From Methanobacteriota archaeon (GTDB taxonomy: Archaea > Halobacteriota > Methanomicrobia > Methanomicrobiales > Methanoculleaceae): a stretch of DNA of 64,000 bases. The stretch is taken from positions 62,001-126,000 of the forward strand of contig JAENYE010000001.1 of the NCBI GenBank assembly GCA_016841955.1. Reading direction: 5' to 3'. The translations under genes were made by a program, and so were the position numbers. Below the pieces are notes generated by a model. The model was not told the DNA's origin and ran no database searches. It saw nothing but the letters and a program-made list of their open reading frames with translations. Of the stretch, positions 33,149 to 62,839 are shown one piece after another (positions within the stretch are counted from its first letter, which is position 1; every line of letters starts with the position of its first letter).

Positions 33149-33329
33149 CTCACGCGAAGCCGCGAAGAACGCGAAGACCAGTTTGGTTGTGAGTTACTCC
33201 CCTTCGCGGCTTCGCGCTCTTAGCGTGAGACCTCGCCACTGTCCCCATAAACTATCTCACGCGAAGCCGCGAAGAACGCGAAGGGGACTACCACCAGCAA
33301 TCGACCGAACTTCGCGTTCTTCGCGTGAG
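33149..33329. repeat. Two palindromic repeat elements (CTCACGCGAAG family)
   Basis: Element one (33149-33229) and element two (33256-33329) each have arms built from CTCACGCGAAG...CGCGAAG and its inverse, around an internal spacer. Bases 33279-33322 are identical, inverted, to 62727-62770. The intervals before and after hold no gene. The family recurs at 41204-41280 and 62613-62839. Confidence 0.85.
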
Positions 33330-33342
33330 GTCTTATCACCAT

Positions 33343-33768
33343 TCATACATCATGGTTCACTCGAAGCCGCGAAGAGGCGAATTCAGCATGATTGTTGGCG
33401 ATCCGTTTCACGCCTTCTTTGAATGTTCCCGCGCCAAAGTTGATCAGCAGCCCCAGCAGAAGTTGCATCACCCGCAGGTAGGTCAACACCTGCTTGGCAT
33501 GAACCGGGGCAATTTTTTCCACAGACTTCAACTCAACTACCAGACAACCATCCACCAGCAAATCCACCCGTAGACCGTCGTCGAAATGCATCCCTTCAAA
33601 GTCGAACGTCACAGATTTCTGCCGTTCCACTTGCAATCCCCGTCTTTCCAGCATCCGTGCAAGGACTGTTTCATAGACCGATTCGAGCAGTCCGGGCCCC
33701 AGGTCTCGGTGCAGGTGATAAGCCGTATCAACAACAACCGACGAGACTTGTTCCACATTCATAACCAT
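33343..33768 (-). CDS. GxxExxY-family protein (PD-(D/E)XK nuclease-like)
   Basis: 141 residues from the ATG at 33768 (MVMNVEQVSSVVVDTAYHL) with GGAAAGG upstream. The family-naming motif is intact (GLLESVY, in LGPGLLESVYETVL), followed by DLLVDGCLVVELKSVEKI, a D...ExK pattern of the restriction-nuclease fold. The function of the family is not established. The 3' codons (FASSRLR) are themselves made of the local repeat sequence, and a repeat half lies directly upstream of the ribosome-binding site, so the gene is framed by inverted repeats. Confidence 0.82.
   Translation of the reverse strand: MVMNVEQVSSVVVDTAYHLHRDLGPGLLESVYETVLARMLERRGLQVERQKSVTFDFEGMHFDDGLRVDLLVDGCLVVELKSVEKIAPVHAKQVLTYLRVMQLLLGLLINFGAGTFKEGVKRIANNHAEFASSRLRVNHDV
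33358..33381. repeat. Left inverted terminal repeat of the GxxExxY unit
   Basis: TCACTCGAAGCCGCGAAG, overlapping the 3' end of the GxxExxY gene. It matches the inverse of 33776-33797 at 16 of 18 positions. Confidence 0.65.
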
Positions 33769-33775
33769 TACCTTT

Positions 33776-33797
33776 CCTTCGCGTCTTCGCGTGAGGC
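33776..33797. repeat. Right inverted terminal repeat of the GxxExxY unit
   Basis: Reads CTTCGCGTCTTCGCGTGA on the plus strand, the inverse of the left repeat, and lies immediately upstream of the GxxExxY ribosome-binding site. Confidence 0.65.
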
Positions 33798-41203: not shown

Positions 41204-41280
41204 CTCACGCGAAGACGCGAACAACGCGAAGTCTGGATGGGTGTCGGCAGTCTTCTTCGCGACTTCGCGTCTTCGCGTGA
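41204..41280. repeat. Palindromic repeat element (CTCACGCGAAG family)
   Basis: Arms CTCACGCGAAGACGCGAA and its inverse at the other end (TTCGCGTCTTCGCGTGA) with a spacer of about 20 bases. It lies alone in the 41086-41352 gap, which contains no gene. Same family as 33149-33329 and 62613-62839. Confidence 0.8.
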
Positions 41281-41352
41281 AGCCACACCACCGACCTCTA
41301 TCGGTAACCGGGCTGTTATCCCGGGGTTGTGGAAAGCATTTCAACAGAGCCC

Positions 41353-62612: not shown

Positions 62613-62839
62613 CTCACGCGAAGCCGCGAAGAATAGTTGGTTGGTGGTGATAGTCCCCTTCGCGGCTTCGCGTTCTTCGCGTGAGGCTCTATCACTATCC
62701 CCATACTTGACCTCACGCGAAGCCGTGAAGAACGCGAAGTTCGGTCGATTGCTGGTGGTAGTCCCCTTCGCACCTGACGGTGCTCGAACTCCGGCCCTTC
62801 GGCCCGTCGTTCTTCGCGGCTTCGCGGCTTTCGCGTGAG
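62613..62839. repeat. Cluster of two palindromic repeat elements in the 62559-63105 gap
   Basis: Element at 62613-62685 and element at 62712-62839, each with CTCACGCGAAG-type arms; the second is interrupted by a block (about 62771-62809). Bases 62727-62770 are identical, inverted, to 33279-33322. The rest of the 547-base gap to cbiE contains no supportable gene. Confidence 0.85.

Follow-up and report, generated by a model that had tools for sequence, protein, structure and literature searches.

A predicted nuclease gene framed by inverted copies of a dispersed repeat in Bacteria and Archaea suggests an unrecognised gene-plus-repeat element resembling, but unrelated to, RAYT/REP

The REP-associated tyrosine transposases (RAYT, PF01797) and their REP, REPIN and BIME repeats are the closest described example of a lasting partnership between an enzyme and short dispersed palindromes. 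The RAYT is a Y1 HUH transposase whose gene is flanked by two inverted repeats with a GTAG/GTGG head and a palindrome of their own. Many dispersed gene-less doublets able to form hairpins and arrays of alternating orientation are found in the same system, and inheritance of the gene is vertical over long periods (PMC2817692, PMC3116915, PMC8049555). Transposons with terminal inverted repeats (TIR) and their MITE derivatives offer a second comparison, and the Cas4 and RecB-family nucleases a third. The GxxExxY proteins (TIGR04256, PF13366 PDDEXK_3) are annotated widely, in half of 198 sampled Bacteroidota genomes and a fifth of 149 Sphingomonadales, but the family is known by name only and has no known function. 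Searches by family name, accession and repeat sequence found two papers that mention GxxExxY, both in passing, and none that links the family to repeats, and the arrangement reported here is therefore regarded as undescribed in the open-licence literature, with the caveat that subscription papers and NCBI's own family notes lay outside the search.

The window analysed here is a stretch of 64,000 nucleotides from a Methanobacteriota archaeon of the Methanoculleaceae (GCA_016841955.1, contig JAENYE010000001.1, positions 62,001 to 126,000). An earlier note, made from the sequence alone, had claimed that a GxxExxY gene in this window is bounded by inverted repeat copies matching in 16 of 18 positions, with related palindromic elements next door and elsewhere, and this observation was confirmed. 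The gene (CDS 33343-33762, minus strand, 139 aa) matched TIGR04256 (126.6 bits against a cut-off of 35, E 6e-37) and PF13366 (127 bits against 22, E 6e-37). The 18-nt arms at 33357-33374 and 33777-33794 are inverted with 16/18 matches. The left arm (33356-33383, plus strand, TTCACTCGAAGCCGCGAAGAGGCGAATT) encodes the last residues of the protein (EFASSRLRVNH), while the right arm (33777-33796, minus strand, CTTCGCGTCTTCGCGTGAGG) lies just upstream of the ribosome-binding site, about 15 nt upstream of the ATG at 33762. The repeat is, however, longer than the note described, being a TCA followed by three heptamers of the CGCGAAG type spaced by 1-2 nt, CTCACGCGAAGCCGCGAAGAACGCGAAG. Two gene-less, or solo, palindromic elements made of the same arms stand next to the gene, at 33149-33229 (arms 33149-33176 and 33202-33229) and 33256-33330 (arms 33256-33283 and 33310-33330), and further solos of the same family are located at 41204-41281, 62613-62685 and 62712-62839. 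The last of these has a second small palindrome (GCACCTGACGGTGC) inside it, and such a second repeat, of the GCACCTG(A)CGGTGCTCGAACTCC and CTTCGGTCTTCTCAAGCTCC types, lies inside or beside solo elements in this genus (window 62760-62812, and aligned intergenic regions). In the 2.43-Mb genome CGCGAAG-N(1-2)-CGCGAAG occurs 199 times and the reversed control pattern 0 times. The only other PF13366 gene in this genome (locus L002) is also bounded by the same arms, the left one degraded, and likewise stands beside a solo palindrome.

This framing extends far beyond the window. In 27 loci of the same order nearly every GxxExxY gene lies tightly between inverted repeats, and the mean alignment score of a gene's own two flanks was 118, against 26 for flanks of different genes. 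In Methanocorpusculum-like genomes (the genus names Methanoculleus and Methanocorpusculum are our inference) the arms are long, up to 207 nt at 96% identity, and differ wholly between gene lineages, so that a strictly conserved arm sequence for the whole family was rejected. In 79 loci from many bacterial phyla (Verrucomicrobia, Planctomycetes, Proteobacteria, Cyanobacteria, Bacteroidetes, Chloroflexi and others) the motif CRCNRAG-N(1-2)-CRCNRAG was found within 50 nt upstream of the coding domain 84 times in the direct orientation and 4 times in the opposite, and within 50 nt downstream 78 times inverted and 5 times opposite, with about 0-1 per 50-nt bin beyond about 600 nt. Since these loci had been picked by similarity to the window gene, a second sample was drawn by family profile from Bacteroidota, and of its 30 loci 90% had an own-pair score of at least 24, against 17% of cross-pairs, with the motif distributed 14∶1 upstream and 13∶1 downstream. 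A minority of GxxExxY genes show no such arms, and about 13% of loci in one scored set fell below 24. Among these exceptions are loci L046 and L049, which belong to a subtype without obvious arms. In Methanocorpusculum-like genomes (handles G094, G098, G106, G118 and G141) many GxxExxY genes of this subtype come as oppositely oriented pairs about 2-8 kb apart, as if framing a larger segment. A further exception is the gene on the Fusobacterial plasmid pZRK30-1 (L284:3900-4470), which is flanked by direct rather than inverted repeats of about 20-26 nt (AGATTTAATCCGTGTACCTAT). Conversely, one gene unit (L077:2740-3620) has three to four stacked arms on each side, spaced about 40 nt, like concentric layers around the gene. 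In loci L288, L080 and L087 both arms change together to a variant heptamer of the CGCGACG or CGCAACG type, and the two arms thus seem to evolve in concert.

Gene and dispersed repeats were found to occur together. In 149 Sphingomonadales genomes sampled without regard to either feature, at least 5 triple-heptamer repeats occurred in 22 of 30 genomes with the gene and in 6 of 119 without (odds ratio 52, p=1e-14). In 35 Methanoculleus genomes the median was 106 copies with the gene or its fragments and 3 without (p 0.001), although these p values treat genomes as independent, which relatives are not. Some genomes without the gene still hold many copies (85 and 70 in the Methanoculleus genomes G028 and G068, 37 in the Sphingomonad G271), which indicates that the gene is not needed for short-term persistence of the repeats or that it was lost recently. 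Dispersed copies resembled the arms of the resident gene more than those of other genomes, with own arms ranking first in 6 of 9 genomes (permutation p<5e-5). The nine are those whose hits happened to be listed, and two of the genomes, G264 and G316, are clear exceptions in which the solos do not match the resident arms best. No PF01797 match was found anywhere in the genome of the window gene, and Y1 transposases were absent from all seven repeat-rich Methanoculleus genomes tested and from 8 of 11 Sphingomonads. A RAYT as the hidden driver of the repeats was therefore rejected for Methanoculleus.

In most Sphingomonadales loci the gene sits between fabD and fabG. Among 30 Sphingomonas genomes, 17 were filled (gap 374-499 nt, with arms starting within about 25 nt of the fabD stop codon) and 12 were empty, 10 of the latter having gaps of 12-17 nt with only a stop codon and ribosome-binding site and two having gaps of 98 and 115 nt. 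The remaining genome (locus L298) has a 172-nt remnant with both arms and the two gene ends but no middle, a gene unit turned by internal deletion into something like a solo. On a fabD-fabG tree of 61 genomes, presence of the gene required 6 changes (11.8 when shuffled), and the gene occurs on both sides of the deepest split. The gene tree recovers that split and shares 8 splits with the fab tree against 0.3 by chance (Mantel r 0.50), with 4 well-supported conflicts. In one of these conflicts (L080/L288) the unusual CGCGACG arms are shared, which suggests that arms travel with the gene. The dN/dS ratio was about 0.1 in six close pairs, in agreement with purifying selection. Relatives of one query protein were found in 8 of 72,556 plasmids and in no phage record, only 3 viral contigs matched, and the Bacteroides 'plasmid' copy lies among chromosomal-type genes. 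This pattern, with mostly vertical inheritance and near absence from plasmids and phages, is the one reported for RAYTs (PMC8049555) and not that of common insertion sequences. Single-copy, vertical inheritance largely applies in Sphingomonadales, but Methanocorpusculum-like genomes carry up to 18 copies and Bacteroidota up to 12.

Block-wise relocation is indicated mainly in Methanomicrobiales, where units at non-orthologous places share homology only over the arm-bounded block (locus pairs L033/L038, L042/L045 and L001/L002). In L033/L038 the shared block runs from -103 to +98, matching the arm ends of L033. Solos were present in genome G435 and missing in G338 at two sites with conserved flanks (L346 and L357), although exact junctions could not be read from them. 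Comparison of genome G000 with its relatives G016 and G046 gave no clean insertion sites, the intergenic regions being too diverged, and G046 probably lost the repeats by deletion rather than never having them. The same gene pair in 30 Methanoculleus genomes gave no clean empty site either, as the region between the genes is hypervariable. No target-site duplication and no strain-level transposition event were seen, in relatives too diverged between genes for exact junctions. In all four double palindromes found, the inner and outer arms pair concentrically by type, with the inner solo lying in the loop of the outer one. Solos are of near-constant length within a genome, and Sphingomonad solos of 139-144 nt (L262-L279) carry inner hairpins GCGGC(G/A)AAGCCGC at similar positions although the rest of the interior is not conserved, so that a folded form may matter. 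Solo loops resemble the 3′ end of the gene (z 7.3), but one of six internal control stretches scored 6.3, and this resemblance is considered suggestive only.

The AlphaFold2 model of the protein (pLDDT 91.6, pTM 0.86) predicts a RecB/Cas4-like PD-(D/E)XK fold. In a Foldseek comparison with solved structures it was nearest to Cas4 SSO0001 (probability 0.99, TM 0.51-0.53), MGME1 and lambda-type exonucleases, though with weak E-values (best 0.017). Among 66 relatives G24, L26, E27, Y30, D67, E77 and K79 were invariant, with E77-x-K79 forming the ExK motif, and Q91 and Y95 of the QxxxY motif were nearly so. These features fit an active RecB-type nuclease, an activity inferred from sequence and model alone.

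We favour, with moderate confidence, the view that the gene and its two arms are one unit of a gene-plus-repeat system that works like RAYT/REPIN but with an unrelated enzyme. In this view GxxExxY, a minimal RecB/Cas4-like nuclease, would be the dedicated enzyme of a dispersed family of palindromic elements whose arms are triplets of heptamer iterons (CRCNRAG). The gene would sit where the loop of such a palindrome would be, and the solos would be its non-autonomous partners, at least one of which arose by internal deletion of a gene unit. The nuclease may recognise paired iteron arms, as hairpin, cruciform or duplex and probably in a hairpin or cruciform form, and cut there, whereupon repair or replication would copy an element into the cut, often into or next to an existing palindrome, and so maintain or spread the palindromes. 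What the analysis documents is the arrangement of gene and arms, its conservation over two domains, the co-occurrence with dispersed cognate palindromes, the fixed site with empty relatives and mostly vertical inheritance in at least one order, the internal-deletion remnant and the purifying selection, whereas recognition, cutting and copying of the repeats by the protein, and hence any transposition, are inferred. The note's interpretation, a REP/RAYT-style relation in which a nuclease-fold protein could move or act on the repeats of a possible small mobile unit, is thus partly supported: the relation is well supported, while 'mobile unit' applies to some lineages and not to others. The outcomes that the note had named as refuting, GxxExxY genes lacking the repeat and repeats equally common without the gene, were looked for and did not occur as a rule, as most genes carry the repeats and repeats are much rarer without the gene.

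A more far-reaching possibility, which remains tentative, is a categorically new class of selfish or domesticated element, spread over Bacteria and Archaea, in which the nuclease recognises extruded palindromes and inserts elements into their loops ('palindrome-loop homing'). This would explain the gene in the loop, the nested solos and the unrelated long palindromes around the gene in Methanocorpusculum-like genomes.

Of the other explanations, the one that survives best, although it is unlikely, is an ordinary TIR transposon whose transposase happens to be a PD-(D/E)XK nuclease, with the solos as MITEs and the gene unit itself as the mobile entity. The arm-bounded homology in Methanomicrobiales, the long and nearly identical arms and the high copy numbers in some genomes speak for it, while the mostly fixed and vertically inherited copy at fabD-fabG, the near absence from plasmids and phages, unlike typical insertion sequences, and the failure to find a target-site duplication, in relatives too diverged for exact junctions, speak against it. 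Quite unlikely is a host or defence nuclease with the iterons as its recognition or regulatory sites, as Chi is for RecBCD, or as self-tags, and not as mobile DNA. The predicted fold with its QxxxY motif, the strong purifying selection, the long-term vertical inheritance and the arms at both borders would be compatible with this, but solos that are paired, palindromic, of near-constant length, present or absent between related species and nested one inside another fit a spreading element better than point recognition sites. Equally unlikely is that the repeats belong to some other mobile system and that GxxExxY genes merely inserted into, or were captured by, these palindromes. The complete difference in arms between lineages of Methanocorpusculum-like genes, and the fact that REPs are targets of insertion sequences (PMC1525189), could be taken to favour capture, but the same heptamer-iteron arms accompany the gene from Archaea to Bacteroidota, gene presence predicts repeat number, and Y1 transposases are absent from several repeat-rich genomes. 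A chance inverted repeat with no link to the gene has no evidence in its favour and is refuted by the orientation-specific enrichment in independent samples.

Tying GxxExxY proteins to a dispersed repeat family gives them a candidate substrate that can be synthesized as an oligonucleotide, and gives an origin for a common, unnamed class of intergenic repeats in Bacteria and Archaea. If this reading is right, long-lived nuclease-repeat partnerships of the RAYT/REPIN kind arose at least twice with unrelated enzymes, which makes the question of what such systems do for their hosts testable by comparison. Cas4 SSO0001, MGME1 and lambda exonuclease share with the GxxExxY protein the predicted fold and the conserved acidic residues, ExK and QxxxY, but the latter is a single small domain of about 120 aa, and its only cysteine rules out an iron-sulphur cluster of the Cas4 type, which requires four. 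TIR transposons with MITE derivatives have in common with this system an arm-bounded unit, gene-less derivatives and an internal-deletion remnant, but here there is no known transposase domain, no target-site duplication was detected in the diverged relatives compared, the gene is often one fixed copy, and it is nearly absent from plasmids and phages. The RAYT/REP system is shared in outline, in that a nuclease gene is flanked by two inverted repeats of a dispersed family, gene-less doublets able to form hairpins are numerous, and BIME-like arrays alternate in orientation, while long vertical inheritance largely holds in Sphingomonadales but not in the multi-copy Methanocorpusculum-like genomes or Bacteroidota. 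The GxxExxY system is found in Archaea and Bacteria, with several copies per genome in some lineages. It works like RAYT/REPIN but is not a RAYT, because the enzyme is a predicted PD-(D/E)XK nuclease and not a Y1 HUH transposase, and because its arms are iteron triplets without a GTAG/GTGG head that are not themselves hairpins, the palindrome forming only between two arms.
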